Positions 34,808 through 43,538 of a stretch of 64,000 nucleotides of DNA are shown here, in pieces (within the stretch, counting starts at the first letter, position 1; every line of letters begins with the position of its first letter). The position numbers were made by a program, and so were the translations under genes. The notes below the pieces were generated by a model that did not search any database, was not told the origin of the DNA, and saw only the letters and a list, made by a program, of their open reading frames with translations. The stretch lies in the NCBI RefSeq assembly GCF_900103955.1, contig NZ_FNIL01000001.1, positions 186,001 to 250,000 of the forward strand. Direction: 5' to 3'. This DNA is from Alkalicoccus daliensis (GTDB taxonomy: Bacteria; Bacillota; Bacilli; Bacillales; Salisediminibacteriaceae).

Positions 34808-34850
34808 ATGGTTTCACAGTAAACCAGCTGATCTAGGGGTGGATAATAGT

Positions 34851-37061
34851 ATGGAAAATAATAAAAATAAAATGATTACCCGACGAGCATTAACCATGAT
34901 GGGGATATTTGCACTAGCTATTCTGTTTATGTTTTCAAGGTTTGTATACATTCAGGCATCCAAGGAAGTACAAGATGTTGATTTGCAGCAGCTGCTTGAA
35001 AACCGATGGACGCAGACGGTAGCCCTGGAAGGTGAGAGGGGAAATATATTAGACAGGAATGGCGAGGTTCTTGCTGAAGAAATCCCTTCATATACAATTG
35101 TTGCTGTTTTGGATGACAGATACGATTCTCATGTGGAGAACCCTTCAGAAACTGCAGAAGCTTTATCTTCAGTATTAGAAATTGACCGCGAATTTTTAGA
35201 ATCTCAGCTTTCAAGAGATTCTGTGCAGGTGGAGCTTGGCCCCTCTGCAAAAAATATGAGTTATGAAACAAAAGAAAAGATAGAAGCGTTAGAGCTTCCT
35301 GGAATTACATTTCGGGAAGACCCCCGGAGGTACTATCCAAAACAAACTTTTGCATCGCATATTATTGGTTATACCGAGCGGGATATGTCAGAGGCAAGAA
35401 TGGGACTTGAAAACAGTTTAGATGAGTATCTGCAGGATGAACCAGGCTCGATAGAATATCAAAAGGACGGAAAGAGCAGAAGGCTTGCTAACGCTGAGGA
35501 GTTTATCGACGAACCTAAAAATGGAAGTGATGTAGTACTGACTTTGGATTCAAGAATTCAGACTGCAATGGAACAGACGATGAACCAGGTAGATGAATTA
35601 TATGAACCCGAACGAATGATGGCAATTGTAGCGAATGCTAAAACTGGGGAAATATTAGGAATGTCCAATAGACCGAGCTTCAATCCTAATGAATATGAAA
35701 ATATAGAAAATTTTACGAATTTTAATATATCCTCCCGATTTGAACCAGGTTCAACTATGAAAATTTTCACATTGGCAGCTGCTATTGAAGAAGGTGTATA
35801 CGATGGGGAAGATACGTTTGATTCTGGTACTTACAAAATTTATGACAGAACAATCAGAGACCACAATCAAGGAGAAGGATGGGGAGAAATCACCTTTAAT
35901 GAAGGCGTGCAGCGGTCATCCAACGTCGCTTTTTCAATTATTGCAATGGAAATTTTAGGCCCTGAAAAACTTTACGAATATATTGATAAGTTTGGTTTTA
36001 GAACTCCGACTGGAATTGACCTTCCGAACGAGATAGAAGGAGGTTCCATCGCAGAGTCTTATCCTATTGATGCTGCCACTACAGCTTTTGGACAAGCTAC
36101 GTCTATTTCTCCAATGCAGCAGGTCCAGGCTGCCACCGCAATAGCGAATGATGGAAAAATGATGAAGCCCTATGTAGTATCTGAAATTGTAGATGCAGCC
36201 AGTGGAGAGGCGATTAAGAAAACGGAGCCTGAAATAGCAGGAGAACCAATTTCTGCAGAAACAGCGGAACAAGTAAGAGAAATAATGGAGACAGTCGTGA
36301 CAGAAGAAGCGGGTACAGGTCAACCTTATGCTGTAGAAGGTTTTGATATAGCGGGTAAAACAGGTACAGCACAGATTCCAAGAGAAAGCGGCGGCGGTTA
36401 TATTACTGGTAACGGACAGAATATATTTTCATTTATAGGTATGGCCCCCGCTTCTGATCCTGAAGTGATTGTATACGTAGCTGTGGATCGACCACAGCTT
36501 GAAGGGTATCAGCTGGGTAATGAACCAGTATCTATGATTTTTAAGCAGATCATGGAACAAAGCCTCCAATATCTGAACATCGCACCTTCAGAAGAAGATG
36601 AGCTGCAGAATGAACCTGTAAATAATGTTGTAATTTCAAATTTGGCAGGAGAAAATATTCAAGAGGCTGAGCAAGTATTGGAAGATGAAGGGATTCAGAC
36701 AATAATACTGGGAGAGGGAGAATCTGTAGTTGCTCAGTCTCATGAGGAAGGAAGTACCTTAGCTTCGCAGGAAAAGGTTATTCTTCTCACTGAAGGAAAG
36801 GCTGAAATGCCTGATATTACAGGTTGGAGCCTTCGAAGCGTCCAGCAGGCTGCCGCACTGCTTGAAATAGAAGTAGAGGCAGAGGGAATCGGTTTTGTGA
36901 TTGAGCAGAAACCTGACTACGGAAAGACGCTGGAAAATGTGAAACGGATTGCTGTAACTTTAGGAGACGAAGAACTGGAAGAAGATTCAGAAGAGGAAGA
37001 AGAAGAGGTTATAGAAGAAGGTACAGACGAAGAAAATGAACAAAATTTCATTATGGATTAG
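34851..37061 (+). CDS. pbpB: Septal penicillin-binding protein 2B, PASTA domains
   Basis: A 736-residue class B transpeptidase that cross-links septal peptidoglycan. One N-terminal membrane helix (about 15-36) is followed by the dimerisation domain and the transpeptidase domain with STMK (301-304), SSN (356-358) and KTG (503-505). Two PASTA domains (about 595-705) come next, then an acidic tail of some 30 residues rich in Glu. ATG 34851 follows AGGGGTGG; a GTG at 34839 is in frame. B. subtilis has a second, sporulation-specific paralogue (spoVD) next; here murE follows instead. Confidence 0.93.
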   Translation: MENNKNKMITRRALTMMGIFALAILFMFSRFVYIQASKEVQDVDLQQLLENRWTQTVALEGERGNILDRNGEVLAEEIPSYTIVAVLDDRYDSHVENPSETAEALSSVLEIDREFLESQLSRDSVQVELGPSAKNMSYETKEKIEALELPGITFREDPRRYYPKQTFASHIIGYTERDMSEARMGLENSLDEYLQDEPGSIEYQKDGKSRRLANAEEFIDEPKNGSDVVLTLDSRIQTAMEQTMNQVDELYEPERMMAIVANAKTGEILGMSNRPSFNPNEYENIENFTNFNISSRFEPGSTMKIFTLAAAIEEGVYDGEDTFDSGTYKIYDRTIRDHNQGEGWGEITFNEGVQRSSNVAFSIIAMEILGPEKLYEYIDKFGFRTPTGIDLPNEIEGGSIAESYPIDAATTAFGQATSISPMQQVQAATAIANDGKMMKPYVVSEIVDAASGEAIKKTEPEIAGEPISAETAEQVREIMETVVTEEAGTGQPYAVEGFDIAGKTGTAQIPRESGGGYITGNGQNIFSFIGMAPASDPEVIVYVAVDRPQLEGYQLGNEPVSMIFKQIMEQSLQYLNIAPSEEDELQNEPVNNVVISNLAGENIQEAEQVLEDEGIQTIILGEGESVVAQSHEEGSTLASQEKVILLTEGKAEMPDITGWSLRSVQQAAALLEIEVEAEGIGFVIEQKPDYGKTLENVKRIAVTLGDEELEEDSEEEEEEVIEEGTDEENEQNFIMD

Positions 37062-37070
37062 CATAGTAGA

Positions 37071-37113
37071 GAAAGGGGACAGTGCCGGTAGCAGCAGCTG
37101 CCCCTTTTTATTT
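37071..37113 (+). terminator. Terminator after pbpB
   Basis: Stem AAAGGGG-CAG with CTGCCCCTTT, then a T-rich tail. Together with the promoter at 37325 it splits the dcw cluster into separate transcripts. Confidence 0.75.
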
Positions 37114-37324
37114 TCAGCTGTAACGGTGTTATAATTTACTTTTCAGGAAATACCACTTAAAGGAGGGTTTGTTAAGTAATATTTCTTTCATAATACATTT
37201 AGATAAACAGTAAAACTCAGCCTCTTTAAAAAGAAGTGAGTTAAGGTTTAATTCATTCTTGCAGAGGTAATAACTAACGTGGTGCAAATTTTTAAATATT
37301 ACTGCCATATCTTTTGAAAATAAT
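37114..37324. other. Intergenic region between pbpB and murE, no gene seen
   Basis: A+T-rich. A minus-strand frame here has no ribosome binding site and no recognisable product. The region corresponds to the spoVD position of B. subtilis, but no remnant of spoVD is visible. Confidence 0.5.
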
Positions 37325-37353
37325 ATGACAAATCCCTCCAGGAGAAGTAAAAT
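37325..37353 (+). promoter_or_regulatory. Probable promoter for the murE operon
   Basis: ATGACA (37325-37330), 17-bp spacer and TAAAAT (37348-37353), 44 bp before the murE start. Confidence 0.55.
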
Positions 37354-37396
37354 AGACAAGAAATAAGATCGCGTTAAGTAAAGGATGAGACATGTG

Positions 37397-38863
37397 ATGA
37401 AGTCGTTACATAATTTAGCAGATAATCTACCTTTAATGGAATTATCACAGGAGAAAGATGTAACTGTATACGGTATGAAAATGGATCACAGAGAAATAGA
37501 ACATGGAGATATATTTTTTTGTGTACCCGGGTTTACTGTGGATGGACATAATTTTGCAGAAGACGCAGTAAAAAATGGAGCAGCAGCTCTCGTAACGGAT
37601 CGGTGGCTGAACGTATCGGTTCCTGTTTTAAAAGTCCCGGATGTAAGACGTGCTATGGCACTTCTTTCTGCAGTGTTTTATGAGCACCCAAGCAGTGACA
37701 TGCATTTAATAGGTGTTACCGGCACAAACGGGAAAACTTCCGTAACCCATTTCATAGAGCAGATGTTAGCAAAACTTAAAATCAATACAGGAATTATTGG
37801 TACCATGTACACAAAATATAATGAAAAGATAATTCCTTCAAAAAATACTACGCCGGAATCATTGATCCTGCAGCAGTTGTTAGCAGAAATGCGGGATGCC
37901 GATACGGACACAGTAGCAATGGAAGTTTCCTCACATTCTCTGGCTAATGGCAGAATTCATGGTACTCAATTTAATACTGCTATTTTCACTAATTTGTCGC
38001 AGGATCATCTTGATTATCATGTCACAATGAAAGATTATGCGAGAGCTAAAAGTCTATTGTTTGCTCAGCTGGGCAGCTCTTTTAACCGGAATCCACAGGC
38101 AGTCTCCATTATTAATATTGATGATGAATATGCTGATATCATGATGGAAGCTTCAGCAGCGCCAGTTATTACTTATGGAATGACGGATAATGCAATGATT
38201 CGAGCTGAAAATGTACGGTTGACACCAACTGGTTCAGTATTCAAATTTTCTGCACAGGGAATTACAAAAGAAGTCTCACTAAAGCTGCCCGGCCGGTTTT
38301 CAGTTTATAATGCTCTAGCAGCTGCAGCAGCGCTGTATGTAAGAGGATATGAATGGGAGAAGCTCTTGCCATTACTGTCAGACCTTACCGGGGTCAGTGG
38401 AAGATTTGAGCCTGTGATGAGTAATGCATCAGTACATGTAATTGTGGATTATGCGCATACACCGGACAGTCTTCAAAATGTCCTGGAGACAATTAAGGAC
38501 TTAGCAGAAAAGAAGATATATGTCGTAGTTGGGTGCGGGGGAGATAGGGATAAGACAAAAAGACCAGTAATGGCAGGAATTGCTGAACGATATGCTGATT
38601 TTGTTTATTTAACTTCTGACAATCCGCGCACGGAAGATCCTGCGTTAATATTAGACGAAATGGCAGCCGGAGTTGAAGGTTCTGCCTATGAAGTGATTGA
38701 AGATAGAAAAGAAGCGATATACAAAGCAGTGATGCAGGCAGGACCTGAAGATGTTATATTAATCGCAGGCAAAGGTCATGAAACTTATCAGGAAATCGGA
38801 AAGGAACGTTTTGATTTTAATGACAAGGCTGTAGCAGAGCAAGCTTTAAAGGAGTGGAAATAA
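37397..38863 (+). CDS. murE: UDP-MurNAc-L-Ala-D-Glu:meso-diaminopimelate ligase
   Basis: A 488-residue Mur ligase that adds the third residue of the peptidoglycan stem peptide. The ATP loop GVTGTNGKTSV (about residues 105-115) is intact. The DNPR motif, in TSDNPRTEDP, is the signature for meso-diaminopimelate rather than lysine, so the wall should be of the m-DAP type. ATG 37397 is chosen; AAAGGATG upstream is far, and GTG 37394 or ATG 37385 are alternatives. The stop codon overlaps the next start (TAATG). Confidence 0.93.
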   Translation: MKSLHNLADNLPLMELSQEKDVTVYGMKMDHREIEHGDIFFCVPGFTVDGHNFAEDAVKNGAAALVTDRWLNVSVPVLKVPDVRRAMALLSAVFYEHPSSDMHLIGVTGTNGKTSVTHFIEQMLAKLKINTGIIGTMYTKYNEKIIPSKNTTPESLILQQLLAEMRDADTDTVAMEVSSHSLANGRIHGTQFNTAIFTNLSQDHLDYHVTMKDYARAKSLLFAQLGSSFNRNPQAVSIINIDDEYADIMMEASAAPVITYGMTDNAMIRAENVRLTPTGSVFKFSAQGITKEVSLKLPGRFSVYNALAAAAALYVRGYEWEKLLPLLSDLTGVSGRFEPVMSNASVHVIVDYAHTPDSLQNVLETIKDLAEKKIYVVVGCGGDRDKTKRPVMAGIAERYADFVYLTSDNPRTEDPALILDEMAAGVEGSAYEVIEDRKEAIYKAVMQAGPEDVILIAGKGHETYQEIGKERFDFNDKAVAEQALKEWK

Positions 38864-40068
38864 TGACAGCATTCGTGTCCTCCTCTAACATAATTTCGTT
38901 GGTAAGCGAAGTAAGAGGTGATGCAGAAAACTTAACGTTTCCTAAGGTAGTAAGTAATATTTATGACGTGGAAGAAGGAAGCCTGTTTGTACCAAGAAAA
39001 GATAACAGATATGATGGACATCAGTTTGTGGAAGCTGCAGTGGAAGCAGGAGCAGCGGGAGCGTTATGGAAAGCAGGAGAACCTGTTCCAGAAACATTGC
39101 CCGAAAATTTCCCTTTGTTTATCACTGATTCGCCGCAGAAAGTCTGTGATTTATTAGCAGCTGATTACCTTAAATTTCATAAAGCACCTGTTATATATAT
39201 TACAGGAGATTATACTGCAAGCATTGTTATGCGTGTATTGTCTGCATGGACGAAAGGGAAAAGAACGGAAATTATTAAAGAAAGATCGAATTTAAATATT
39301 TCCCATGCTGAAACGATCTTATCTATAGATCTGGATACAGAAATTATTTTTATAGAAGATCTGGACCAGCAAAACTCCATGACTGAAGTAGTTGATTCTT
39401 TAAAGCCGGATATTAATATTACTAGTCATTACAGGAAAGACCGCTTAAATTCATCCACCTTCCCGGAAGAAGGAAAATTACATTTTGAAACCTCGGTTTC
39501 ACCAGTCTATCCAGAGATGGAAACGTTGGATTTACCAGTATGGCTGGAAAGTTACCGGCCGCTTATGGAAACTGCGGCTAAAGTTTACTTCGAAATCACG
39601 GGAAATTCATATCCACCTGTTTCTTTTATTCACGGAGAGACTTTTGGTTTTCAGACAATGACAACGAAATCTGCAGGACTGGTCTTATTTGAAGCAGAAG
39701 CAATGGAAGTAGCAAACTTAGACTATTCCCTCGGATGGCTTTCTCATGTAGAGCCCTATGAACGCAGGGTTCTCGTGATCGATGAGGGGTTTCAGTCGGA
39801 CAGGTCACATAAATCTGTTCACGAACTGTTTGCGGACCATCTGACTTCTCAAATTACAGATGTATTTACAGTTGGTGAAAAAGCTTTTTGGGTGTCTGAT
39901 GCGCTGCAGAGATCAGAAAGAAAATTACCTGAAGCAACCCACTACCGGACTCATATTGAAGCGATTGATGATTTAAGAGAAGTTTTGAATGGACCACACG
40001 TATTAATGTATAAAGGTGCGAACCGGGAATTAATTTATCAGATTCTGCACCAATTGAACAGGAATTAG
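38863..40068 (+). CDS. Degenerate MurF-like protein (ATP-binding loop lost)
   Basis: A 401-residue protein in the slot that murF holds in most dcw clusters. The N-terminal domain keeps the MurF pattern VEEGSLFVPRKDNRYDGH with FVEAAVEAGAAGALW (about 37-70), and the C-terminus keeps an LMYKGANREL segment like the VLVKGSRGMxME end of MurF. The P-loop, normally GITGSNGKTT, reads YITGDYTASI (about 112-121) without GKT. The TEGNxNN motif has become RSNLNI, and the EMG segment reads FIEDL. It is about 50 residues shorter than MurF. ATG overlaps the murE stop after AAAGGAGTGG. It cannot bind ATP in the usual way and is probably a pseudoenzyme; a true murF would have to lie elsewhere. Confidence 0.75.
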   Translation: MTAFVSSSNIISLVSEVRGDAENLTFPKVVSNIYDVEEGSLFVPRKDNRYDGHQFVEAAVEAGAAGALWKAGEPVPETLPENFPLFITDSPQKVCDLLAADYLKFHKAPVIYITGDYTASIVMRVLSAWTKGKRTEIIKERSNLNISHAETILSIDLDTEIIFIEDLDQQNSMTEVVDSLKPDINITSHYRKDRLNSSTFPEEGKLHFETSVSPVYPEMETLDLPVWLESYRPLMETAAKVYFEITGNSYPPVSFIHGETFGFQTMTTKSAGLVLFEAEAMEVANLDYSLGWLSHVEPYERRVLVIDEGFQSDRSHKSVHELFADHLTSQITDVFTVGEKAFWVSDALQRSERKLPEATHYRTHIEAIDDLREVLNGPHVLMYKGANRELIYQILHQLNRN

Positions 40069-40083
40069 AGAGGGGAAAGTTTG

Positions 40084-41055
40084 ATGTTGGAAAATGGGCT
40101 GCTTTTTGCCTTATTATTGTCATTTTTATTAACAGTATTTATTTCACCTGTGTTCATACCTTTTTTAAGAAGGTTAAAATTTGGACAGAGCATAAGAGAT
40201 GTTGGACCTGAATCGCATCATAAAAAAACGGGCACTCCTACTATGGGAGGGCTGATGATTATTTTTTCTGCACTAATTGCGACACTGGTTATTGCCGGGC
40301 AATTCCAGGGATTAACAGTAGAAATATGGTTGCTGCTGCTTGTAATGCTCGGGTTTGGCCTGCTTGGATTTATGGATGATTTTATTAAAGTTGTTAAAAA
40401 AAGAAATTTAGGATTAACTTCCAAACAAAAATTTCTTGGCCAGGTCGTAATTTCAGCGATTGTTTATGTGGTGCTTTTACAGACAGGGTTATCTACGGAG
40501 ATTATTGTGCCGGGTACAGGCTGGTCTGTGGATATCGGATGGCTTTATCTGCCCTTGATTATTATTATGCTCGTAGGAACAAGCAATGCAGTAAATTTAA
40601 CAGACGGACTGGACGGGTTAGTAGCCGGAACAGGAGCCATTGCTTTTACGGCATTTGCAGTACTCGCTGGATTTACTGAACTCTGGACAGTGGCTATATT
40701 TTCTTTAGCAGTCGCAGGTGCACTCCTGGGTTTCCTTGTATTTAATGCCTATCCTGCGAAAGTTTTCATGGGGGACACTGGTTCGCTGGCCCTTGGAGGA
40801 GTTCTTGCACTGATTGCGGTCTTTACAAAAACAGAGTTGCTGTTGATTTTAATAGGAGGAGTTTTTGTAATAGAAACTCTTTCTGTAATTATGCAGGTAG
40901 CATCTTTTAAAATCCGTAAAAAACGAATTTTTAAGATGAGCCCTATTCATCATCATTTTGAGCTGACTGGTTGGAGTGAGTGGAGAGTTGTTCTGACTTT
41001 TTGGGCAGCAGGACTCTTATTTGCTCTTACAGGCATTTGGCTGGAGGTAGGTTAA
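40084..41055 (+). CDS. mraY: Phospho-N-acetylmuramoyl-pentapeptide transferase
   Basis: A 323-residue polytopic enzyme with ten predicted helices that moves phospho-MurNAc-pentapeptide onto undecaprenyl phosphate, giving lipid I. The catalytic and Mg-binding blocks are intact: [33 protein letters not shown] and [12 protein letters not shown], plus the HHH cluster in [13 protein letters not shown] 40084 is preceded by GAGGGG; the TTG at 40081 is also in frame. It is 15 bp after the MurF-like gene. Confidence 0.96.
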
Positions 41056-41058
41056 TTT

Positions 41059-42447
41059 ATGAAGGAATCATCACGTTGGACAAACAAAAAAGTACTTGTG
41101 CTCGGACTAGCAAAAAGCGGTACAGAAGCGGCTAAACTTTTACTGCAGCTCGGAGCACAGGTAACAGTAAATGACCAGACACCCTGGGAAGAAAATGAGC
41201 AGGCAAAGGACCTGCAGAAACTTGGTGCAGAAGTGATCTGCGGTAGTCACCCGATAAGTCTGATTCACAGTGAGTTAGATGCATTAATCAAAAACCCGGG
41301 CATTAGATATGACCATGAGCTGATTGTAGAAGCAGAAAAACATAATATTCCGGTATTGACTGAAATTCAGCTGGCATATGATGTAAGTTCAGCTCCAATT
41401 ATTGGCATCACAGGTTCGAATGGTAAGACAACTACTACAACATATATAGCTGATATGCTTGAAGACAGTAAAACACAACCGCTTCTGGCAGGGAATATAG
41501 GGCATGCAGCATCAGGTGTTGCAAAGAATGCTGCTGAAACAAGCACGCTAGTTATGGAATTATCCAGTTTTCAGCTGCTCGGAACTGACAGCTTCCGTCC
41601 GGATATTGCAGTGCTGCTGAATTTAATAGATGCTCATTTAGATTATCATGGCACTCGAGAAGAGTATATTGAAGCAAAAAAACGTCTTTTCATTTATCAG
41701 ACTCCTGAAGACTATCTTATCTACAATGCAGATGATGAAACAGTAATAGATATGGTGAAAGAAGCAAAGGCGAAAAAAATTCCGTTTTCATTAAAAGAAG
41801 ATTTACCAGATGGTGCTTGTCTATCTCATGGCAGAATAAAATTGTTTGGAGAAGAGCTTATGCCTGTATCGGATTTTTCTCTGCCAGGTGATTATAATAT
41901 TGCCAACGCACTTGCTGCTGCCTGTGCTGCAAAGCTTGGAGGAGCATCTAATGAAAAGATTACAGAAGTAATGAAATCATTTACAGGAGTAAAGCATCGG
42001 CTGCAGCATGTAGGAAGTTGGAGAGGAAGAGAATTCTTTAATAATTCCAAAGCTACAAACGTAACTGCTACAGTAAAAGCTCTTCAAGCATTTGATCAGC
42101 CGATAGTGCTGATTGCAGGAGGACTTGACAGGGGTATTCCTTTTGATGATTTAGAATCTTCCCTGAAAAATGTAACTGCTGCGTTTACTTACGGAGAAAC
42201 TGCAGAAAAGTTAAAGGATACAGCTCACAATGCAGGCGTACCTCTCATTTCAGCATTAGAGACGCTGGAGGAAGCTGTAAAAGAAGCGGTAAATCACGCT
42301 CAAGAGGGGGAAGTGATTCTGCTTTCACCAGCATGCGCTTCGTGGGATCAATTTAAAACCTTTGAAGAACGCGGAGATGCTTTTATCAGAGCTGTAGAAA
42401 AAAACATCGAAGAATTTAACAATCAGCCAAAAGGAGATTTATTATGA
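41059..42447 (+). CDS. murD: UDP-N-acetylmuramoylalanine--D-glutamate ligase
   Basis: A 462-residue Mur ligase that adds D-glutamate to UDP-MurNAc-L-Ala. The N-terminal Rossmann domain starts KVLVLGLAKSG. The ATP loop GITGSNGKTTTTTY (about 114-127) is complete, in contrast to the MurF-like protein two genes upstream. A late block FNNSKATNVTAT is typical of MurD. GGAGGTAGG lies before the ATG. It overlaps murG by four bases, so no spoVE or other SEDS gene stands between them as in B. subtilis. Confidence 0.95.
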   Translation: MKESSRWTNKKVLVLGLAKSGTEAAKLLLQLGAQVTVNDQTPWEENEQAKDLQKLGAEVICGSHPISLIHSELDALIKNPGIRYDHELIVEAEKHNIPVLTEIQLAYDVSSAPIIGITGSNGKTTTTTYIADMLEDSKTQPLLAGNIGHAASGVAKNAAETSTLVMELSSFQLLGTDSFRPDIAVLLNLIDAHLDYHGTREEYIEAKKRLFIYQTPEDYLIYNADDETVIDMVKEAKAKKIPFSLKEDLPDGACLSHGRIKLFGEELMPVSDFSLPGDYNIANALAAACAAKLGGASNEKITEVMKSFTGVKHRLQHVGSWRGREFFNNSKATNVTATVKALQAFDQPIVLIAGGLDRGIPFDDLESSLKNVTAAFTYGETAEKLKDTAHNAGVPLISALETLEEAVKEAVNHAQEGEVILLSPACASWDQFKTFEERGDAFIRAVEKNIEEFNNQPKGDLL

Positions 42448-43538
42448 AAGTATTAGTTTCCGGCGGGGGTACCGGGGGGCACATATATCCTGCGCTTGCT
42501 TTGGTCCGGCATTTAGCTGAAGATGATAATAATTCATTTTTATATATCGGCACGGAAAAAGGATTGGAAGCAACGATAGTGCCAAAGGCAGGAATTCCTT
42601 TTAAAAGTGTACACATTACCGGCTTCCGCAGAAAAATCAGTTTTGAGAATGTTAAAACGGTCCTCCGTTTTCTAAAAGCAGTAAAAAAGGCAAAAAAATA
42701 TATTAAGGAATTTCAGCCCGATGTGGTTGTAGGTACTGGTGGATATGTATGTGGACCTGTAGTTTATGCTGCTGCAAAAGCAAACATACCAACTTTAATT
42801 CATGAACAAAACAGTGTCCCGGGACTGACAAATAAATTTCTTTCAAAGTATGTAGATAAAGTTGCGATATCTTTTGAGGATGCTGCGGAATATTTTCCTG
42901 AGAATAAAACTGTACTTACTGGAAATCCACGTGCTAGTGAAGTAACAGCACCAGGAGATACAGTTTCGCTGAAAGATTTTGGACTGTCAGATGACAAGCA
43001 GACAATCTTAATTGTAGGCGGAAGCAGAGGAGCAAAACCTATTAATGAAGCTGTACTGGAAGCAGTAACTTCCTGGGAAGACAAACCGTATCAAGTAGTA
43101 TATGTAACTGGAGAAGTTCATTTCGATTCTATAAAGTCTGCACTGGAAAATTTAAAGGTCGGAAACCATATTGTTACACTGCCGTATGTTGAAGATATGC
43201 CATCTTTACTAAAAAAGGTTGATATGGTAATAGCCCGGGCAGGAGCAACTTCACTTGCAGAAATAACTGCGCTCGGATTACCATCCATTTTAGTGCCGAG
43301 TCCTTACGTAACAAATAACCACCAGTTTAAAAATGCAAAATCGCTTGTAGATAAGGGTGCAGCAATATTACTTGAAGAAAAAGAACTGAATGCAGCATCA
43401 CTGACCGAAAAAATGGATATCGTCCAGGATCCGGAGAAGCTGGGGGCAATGAAAAATGCTTCATTGAATACTGGAAAGCCGGAAGCTGCTGATTTACTGG
43501 AGAAAGAACTGATATCACTTACTCTGCCCAATAATTAA
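42444..43538 (+). CDS. murG: UDP-GlcNAc:lipid I N-acetylglucosaminyltransferase
   Basis: A 364-residue peripheral membrane glycosyltransferase (GT28) that converts lipid I to lipid II. The N-terminal glycine-rich loop SGGGTGGHIYPALAL, the second loop VGTGGYVCGP and the donor-binding GGSRGAKPINEAV with ARAGATSLAEI are intact. ATG overlaps the murD stop (ATGA) and AAAGGAG lies in the end of murD, so they are translationally coupled. In B. subtilis murB follows; here divIB does. Confidence 0.96.
   Translation: MKVLVSGGGTGGHIYPALALVRHLAEDDNNSFLYIGTEKGLEATIVPKAGIPFKSVHITGFRRKISFENVKTVLRFLKAVKKAKKYIKEFQPDVVVGTGGYVCGPVVYAAAKANIPTLIHEQNSVPGLTNKFLSKYVDKVAISFEDAAEYFPENKTVLTGNPRASEVTAPGDTVSLKDFGLSDDKQTILIVGGSRGAKPINEAVLEAVTSWEDKPYQVVYVTGEVHFDSIKSALENLKVGNHIVTLPYVEDMPSLLKKVDMVIARAGATSLAEITALGLPSILVPSPYVTNNHQFKNAKSLVDKGAAILLEEKELNAASLTEKMDIVQDPEKLGAMKNASLNTGKPEAADLLEKELISLTLPNN

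Follow-up and report, generated by a model that had tools for sequence, protein, structure and literature searches.

The murF position of the division and cell wall (dcw) cluster in the 64,000-nucleotide stretch of Alkalicoccus daliensis analysed here (assembly GCF_900103955.1, contig NZ_FNIL01000001.1, positions 186,001 to 250,000; hereafter the window) is occupied by an open reading frame (ORF) of 401 residues, P0001 (38863-40068, + strand). As judged from its sequence, P0001 is a catalytically dead MurF homologue standing in the ancestral place of murF, between murE and mraY. The catalytic residues have been lost, a replacement ligase is present, the 20 orthologues found in related genomes are of common descent, the gene is under purifying selection, and the constraint on the protein has shifted from the central domain to the N- and C-domains. 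The partner, assembly and effect of P0001 we infer. The explanation we favour, to which as a whole we would give slightly less than an even chance, is that a displaced dcw MurF has been kept by selection and acts as a docking or regulatory subunit.

Loss of the active site in P0001

The stop codon of murE (37385-38863, + strand) shares a base with the ATG of P0001 (TAATG, 38861-38865), and a ribosome binding site, AAAGGAG (38848-38854, + strand), precedes this start from inside murE. On the same strand mraY follows at 40081-41055, an ATG at 40084 being also possible as its start. The P-loops of the neighbouring MurE (GTNGKT) and MurD (GSNGKT) are intact. All of these points, namely the open frame, its ribosome binding site, the coupling to murE and the perfect P-loops of MurE and MurD, had been made in an earlier note on this DNA and are confirmed here.

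Against the MurF model TIGR01143, P0001 scores 61.7 bits where the cut-off is 288.6, and it also falls under the gathering scores of both Pfam Mur domains that it touches. Descent from MurF and the murE-murF-mraY order are supported by synteny, by homology and by a tree whose rooting is unsettled. A search of solved structures returned seven matches, of which the best five are MurF (3zl8, E 2.5e-5).

The domain limits used below (residues 105 and 255) are our own and were set from the alignment. In the N-terminal domain (residues 1-105, 38863-39177) the DGH motif is kept, with D and H in all 20 orthologues and G in 19, and the DSR motif is lost, its Arg being found in none of the 20. The former P-loop (residues 113-120, 39199-39222) reads ITGDYTAS and does not fit GxxGK[ST]; none of the 20 orthologues has the Lys. 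It may be noted that, in the available portions of two reports, Mur ligase activity depends on the P-loop Lys as well as on the carbamoylated one (PMC6085368, PMC3060825). The carbamoylated Lys (AKxE) falls in a gap of P0001, its segment having been deleted from the shrunken central domain (residues 106-255, 39178-39627), and again no orthologue has a Lys there. Of the columns with 90% conservation or more across 19 canonical dcw MurFs, P0001 has a gap at 11. Also lost are GESH and TGMR (the His and the Arg each in 0 of 20 orthologues), and ERSNLNIS and LFEAEA are found in the places of GNxNN and NDAYN. P0001 retains the Glu of EMG, which is found in only 9 of the 20 orthologues. All 20 share without exception the G115-D116 pair of the altered loop, and several of the new C-domain residues too, so the pattern seen in P0001 is more than chance. 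The earlier note had proposed a MurF-like pseudoenzyme in the ancestral murF slot, with an altered ATP loop, a shorter central domain and changed GNxNN and EMG motifs; this is borne out, except that EMG keeps its Glu in P0001.

Distribution and descent of the slot gene

The dcw regions of 34 other genomes of the family were taken together with that of the window, giving 35 in all (family and order being tool-assigned), and an ORF is found between murE and mraY in every one of them. An intact MurF occupies the slot in 3 genomes (G010, G022, G025). In 20 others the slot protein is like P0001 (type A; 383-508 codons, counted from the earliest start possible), with the P-loop lost and the N- and C-domains kept. 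These comprise all 8 genomes of the window's genus, its own included, 8 of genus g3, 3 of g6 and 1 of g7, and no internal stop was found in any of the 20; stops in close relatives had been named in the earlier note as a sign of decay that would refute its reading. The remaining 12 are type B proteins of 220-351 residues. Twelve named type A loci (from Alkalicoccus, Salipaludibacillus, Salisediminibacterium and one metagenome-assembled genome labelled Bacillus sp.) overlap the family genomes, so they are not independent of them.

In a tree of 50 proteins (46 of them different; midpoint root, long branches) type A forms a single clade (100/99) of four genera, and types A and B attach beside the family's own intact dcw MurFs (g8). 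The ddl-linked MurFs, of which the tree has five, group in a clade of their own (100/100), inside a 99/97 branch that excludes the slot proteins. The tree omits 10 type B rows, one ddl row (L088) and 8 dcw rows missed by the loop pattern (L110, L111, L116, L119, L120, L121, L132, L133). Loops missed by the pattern in 8 order relatives proved, when read, to be ordinary GNGKT variants. The earlier note had held that the catalytic copy either moved or was replaced. As the ddl-linked MurFs stand apart and the slot proteins lie beside intact dcw MurFs, replacement is favoured and a moved copy is unlikely.

No full-length type A protein was found outside the family among the listed matches of a profile search over 299 genomes of the order (288 of them outside the family). 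The best outside match listed scores 290 bits, as against 618-673 for full-length type A, and those that were read are ordinary MurFs. Short type A forms score as pieces of about 200-280 bits, so one elsewhere may go unlisted.

Ligases acting in place of the slot MurF

A second, full MurF is encoded in the window's genome (contig C12, 295146-296414, 458 bits), directly downstream of a Ddl-like gene and with ITGSNGKT, GNYNN, EMG and NDAYNASP all intact, as would be expected from the earlier note. Over the family, a canonical MurF above the cut-off is present in 23 of the 35 genomes, being the dcw copy itself in 3 and a copy elsewhere in 20; TIGR01143 is an imperfect sieve here, 1 of 10 control genomes at E 1e-60 lying below the cut-off. 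The other 12 genomes carry a Mur ligase frame of 528-540 codons, which in all 12 keeps ITGS[FY]GKT and adjoins a Ddl-like gene (the one such Ddl scanned has 338.9 bits against a cut-off of 262). Four to five hydrophobic stretches are found in the first 160 or so residues of the 12 family proteins read for this (from 9 of the 12 genomes lacking MurF, together with the window's own, G009 and G029), and the N-terminal Mur domain is missing in both proteins scanned. This membrane-anchored Mur ligase (about 530 residues; L079:2864-4459, L080-L087, L092, L140, L143, L150) is without the uridine-binding domain and so might use a lipid-linked precursor, like MurT.

Where a family genome has no other MurF-type ligase its dcw copy is intact (3 of 3), and where it has one the dcw copy is degenerate (32 of 32; Fisher test, 1.5e-4, uncorrected for relatedness). 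Of the 23 genomes with a canonical MurF, 14 have no membrane ligase at E 1e-60 and 5 have a partial one (G003, G005 and G007, and G028 and G032 with a stop). In 3 more it is full-length, but its loop is altered and no Ddl-like gene lies beside it (SAGKS in the window's genome, FAGAN in G009, VAGAN in G019), and G029 alone has an intact membrane ligase with a Ddl-like neighbour in addition to the canonical MurF. The loop-altered membrane ligases (L075:2766-4370, L093:3082-4665, L147) resemble a second decaying or repurposed MurF.

In a sample of 120 genomes of the order, all 6 without a MurF match (E 1e-80) have the membrane ligase, and of the 7 genomes with it, which span three families, only the window's own also has a MurF (Fisher test, 1.9e-9, with G088, at 281 bits, scored as MurF-bearing). 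Of 15 outside-family genomes without a profile match, 14 have a membrane ligase but lack a MurF that passes the cut-off, and the fifteenth (G066) has a canonical MurF; in G297 the membrane ligase is present as two 451-codon frames. Outside the family a Ddl-like gene lies beside the membrane ligase in G126 and not in G068, G107 and G139, hence the ddl link is not general.

Other Mur ligases were also encountered. Two further MurE-like ligases, extra to the dcw murE, are present in the window's genome (L077:3478-4935 on contig C20 and L078:3534-5024 on C14), both with intact TGTNGKT loops and both over the cut-off of a murE model. Two Mur ligases of about 390-440 residues (L089:3138-4316, L090:485-1804) start near the P-loop and have no N-domain, and one of them adjoins a Ddl-like gene.

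Selection and shifted constraint

Ratios of nonsynonymous to synonymous substitution (dN/dS) were calculated by the simple method of Nei and Gojobori (NG86) for 15 pairs, of which 7 were saturated for the slot gene. Three Alkalicoccus pairs, which share three close genomes and are not independent, give slot-gene values of 0.044, 0.040 and 0.064 (dS 0.42-0.53), beside 0.081 for murE in the one pair measured and 0.013-0.033 for mraY. For P0001 and its G003 orthologue the ratio is 0.139 at a near-saturated dS of 2.49, with 0.162 for murE. The three Salipaludibacillus pairs give 0.156, 0.115 and 0.262 (the last for G016/G026), all below 1, and the only type B pair with a usable dS gives 0.158 (murE 0.065). 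Purifying selection in related genera, for which the earlier note had looked to dN/dS, is thus found in the three pairs of each genus and is strongest in Alkalicoccus.

The constraint is distributed differently from that of MurF. Mean conservation of the central domain is 0.44 in type A as against 0.70 in the 19 canonical dcw MurFs, and is unchanged in the N-domain (0.56 and 0.55) and the C-domain (0.60 and 0.61). Within the remodelled C-terminal domain (residues 256-401, 39628-40065), 3 positions are conserved in both groups, 6 have switched residue and 20 are conserved in type A only. Here two new motifs, DEGFQ (residues 307-311, 39781-39795) and YKGANR (residues 383-388, 40009-40026), replace the GDMxE and FKASRG positions, and GEKAFW (residues 338-343, 39874-39891) is also conserved. 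We read the alignment of this domain as pointing to new constraint and not to leftover conservation.

Proposed role of P0001

In the explanation we favour, the P0001 gene would be the ancestral dcw murF, whose reaction was presumably taken over by another D-Ala-D-Ala-adding ligase, the ddl-linked MurF here and, in some sisters, the membrane-anchored Mur ligase. What was displaced has lost its ATP-binding and catalytic residues, and probably the uridine-binding ones too, while its N- and C-domains have been kept by selection, the latter gaining its new set of conserved residues. P0001, MurE and MraY are probably translated from one mRNA. P0001 may fill the former place of MurF in a membrane-near Mur assembly, where it could help deliver or gate UDP-N-acetylmuramoyl (UDP-MurNAc) peptide between MurE, the acting MurF and MraY, with catalysis provided in trans. 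A docking or regulatory role of this kind is suggested by the lost chemistry, the kept domains, the new C-domain constraint, the operon position and the reported contacts of MurF. In the available parts of the sources, contacts of MurF with MreB are reported and a complex with MraY and MurG is proposed (PMC4929429), and a natural MurE-MurF fusion binds MurG (PMC6420597). The view of the earlier note that the protein has been kept in a non-catalytic capacity is partly supported, with the second MurF of intact loop and purifying selection in its favour.

Yet several results weigh against such a role. No single domain is kept universally, the C-domain being missing from all 12 type B proteins and the N-domain as well from two of them (G020 and G027). 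Constraint in Salipaludibacillus is weaker than that on murE (0.053-0.082 where measured), and 21 C-domain positions are conserved in canonical MurF only. Beyond the family, we considered 24 genomes chosen by high TIGR01143 scores (441.5-476.7 bits), in which MurF is not in the slot; 13 of these have no slot ORF of more than 100 codons, and the same holds for 6 of 6 outside-family genomes with the membrane ligase. The relic is therefore dispensable in many lineages.

The main rival to docking or regulation is ligand sensing, whereby the rebuilt C-domain would bind UDP-MurNAc-peptide, stem peptide or a nucleotide and signal to MurE, MraY or the acting MurF. Conserved polar or aromatic residues, among them D307, Q311, K340, W343, H364, Y383 and N387, which lie in several separate and mostly new C-domain motifs, speak for it, as does the kept DGH. 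Against it are the missing ATP site and the loss of the DSR Arg in all 20 orthologues. It is this loss of DSR that weakens the UDP-MurNAc-peptide sensor suggested in the earlier note, even with DGH still kept. We regard sensing as unlikely, but as a serious competitor.

Short relics beyond the family

In the other 11 of the 24 outside-family genomes the slot holds an ORF of 138-163 residues. A profile of these 11 relics matches the type A N-domain (99.4% probability, E 5e-22), and no Pfam or NCBIfam model was above its cut-off in the six that were scanned. In G089 and G104, both counted as having no slot ORF, the start of mraY is overlapped by a frame of 106 codons. Over the 299 genomes of the order, at least 59 have a short frame of 109-190 codons with the N-domain only (such slot relics, of about 150 residues, occur in many genera and are coupled to murE as well as to mraY; L163-L180, L192-L221), with murE upstream confirmed in 30 and mraY downstream in 29; none of the matches listed is in the family of the window. 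Separately, two genomes of family f36 (G284:C1:1670645, G241:C5:52088) have a frame of 313 codons that the profile of the MurF N-domain matches, perhaps a separate relic of N- and central domains.

The position of these frames brings in a further possibility, that the ORF is kept as a translational bridge on which ribosomes run from murE to mraY, in-frame shrinkage being tolerated, frameshifts and stops being removed, and the protein itself mattering little. The first possible start of the slot ORF lies -44 to +1 nucleotides from the murE stop in 30 of the 31 family genomes where murE was found (944 in G034). The stop of the N-domain-only relics lies -35 to +3 nucleotides from the first possible mraY start in all 28 measured loci, and several of them end in residues (RRG, GGE) whose codons read as the Shine-Dalgarno sequence of mraY, so that translational coupling may partly explain the retention of the frame. 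In the family, type A ORFs end -4 to +22 nucleotides from mraY, but type B ORFs end 51-275 nucleotides short of it. Moreover, a bridge predicts little amino-acid constraint, whereas dN/dS is 0.040-0.064 in Alkalicoccus and 0.17-0.55 even in the N-domain-only relics (20 same-genus pairs with a proportion of synonymous differences below 0.62), the latter being above the 0.014-0.152 of murE where measurable in the same pairs. The invariant new motifs are also left unexplained. A pure bridge thus suits the geometry of the short relics better than P0001 and does not agree with the amino-acid constraint; we consider it distinctly unlikely.

It is improbable that P0001 is a dying pseudogene, or a MurF-type ligase whose ATP site is unusual but still active. 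Constraint is indeed looser than on murE and mraY in some lineages (the G016/G026 pair and the N-domain-only relics), two of the 59 listed short relics have stops in their matches (three in one and one in the other), and type B resembles partial loss. But the Alkalicoccus dN/dS is near that of murE and the 20 orthologues are free of internal stops. Against an active ligase, none of the 20 has the P-loop Lys, the carbamoylated Lys, the His of GESH or the Arg of TGMR, and another MurF-type ligase accompanies every one of the 32 degenerate slot copies. Hardly credible is a split MurF in which the relic lends its N-domain in trans to the membrane-anchored ligase: that ligase lacks an N-terminal Mur domain in the two proteins scanned, and all 12 family genomes that have no canonical MurF carry it together with a slot relic, but the relic is kept equally in the 20 with a full-length MurF elsewhere and is found in 0 of the 6 outside-family membrane-ligase genomes, a distribution that does not support it.

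Returning to the docking or regulatory reading, we suggest tentatively, and with rather more doubt, that displaced dcw MurFs are an overlooked non-catalytic set in this order of Bacilli, often kept and cut in frame to N-only, N+central or N+C forms. In Alkalicoccus and its kin the rebuilt C-domain may bind a partner or a precursor and control the hand-over of UDP-MurNAc-pentapeptide to MraY.

Other features of the dcw cluster

One penicillin-binding protein gene is present in the dcw cluster of the window's genus and of g6, and two in the other genera. The stretch from murD to murG likewise holds fewer genes in these two genera (34839-43538 in the window; L063, L066-L074), a comparison for which the G007 fragment is not informative. 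This reduction may be tied to a loss of sporulation genes.

Comparison with known systems

A literature search returned no paper joining 'Mur ligase' and 'pseudoenzyme' and nothing on murF in Alkalicoccus, and no non-catalytic or membrane-anchored MurF was recognised in the literature searched, most subscription journals lying outside it. It has long been asked whether the Mur enzymes operate as an assembled complex. With a non-catalytic MurF that selection retains in the murE-mraY operon, what MurF does structurally is set apart from its chemistry, and the idea of a Mur complex becomes directly testable. The family series (intact, N+C, N+central and central only), together with the N-only relics outside, forms a natural experiment on what is retained after an enzyme is replaced. 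Replacement by a membrane-anchored Mur ligase without the N-terminal Mur domain is, further, unexpected at an essential step.

P0001 is like the dcw MurF (TIGR01143) in its N- and C-domain and partial central homology, its slot, DGH, GEKxxW and the layout of the C-domain. It differs in having no P-loop, GNxNN, GESH, carbamoylated Lys, TGMR or NDAYN, in its shortened central domain and in its new C-domain motifs. MurT-type ligases have no N-domain. MurT/GatD resembles P0001 in that a relative of the Mur ligases serves a different function within their pathway, but in P0001 it is the N-domain that is kept and the ATP site that is lost. According to the accessible part of the report, MurT keeps the P-loop Lys and works on lipid II (PMC6085368). 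MurE-MurF fusions and the MurG- or MreB-based complexes, in which Mur proteins encoded together group physically, provide the setting where a non-catalytic MurF could act, although the MurF there is catalytic and a dead one is not described in the portions available (PMC6420597, PMC4929429). With pseudoenzymes in general P0001 shares a dead site, purifying selection and an active paralogue in the same cell.

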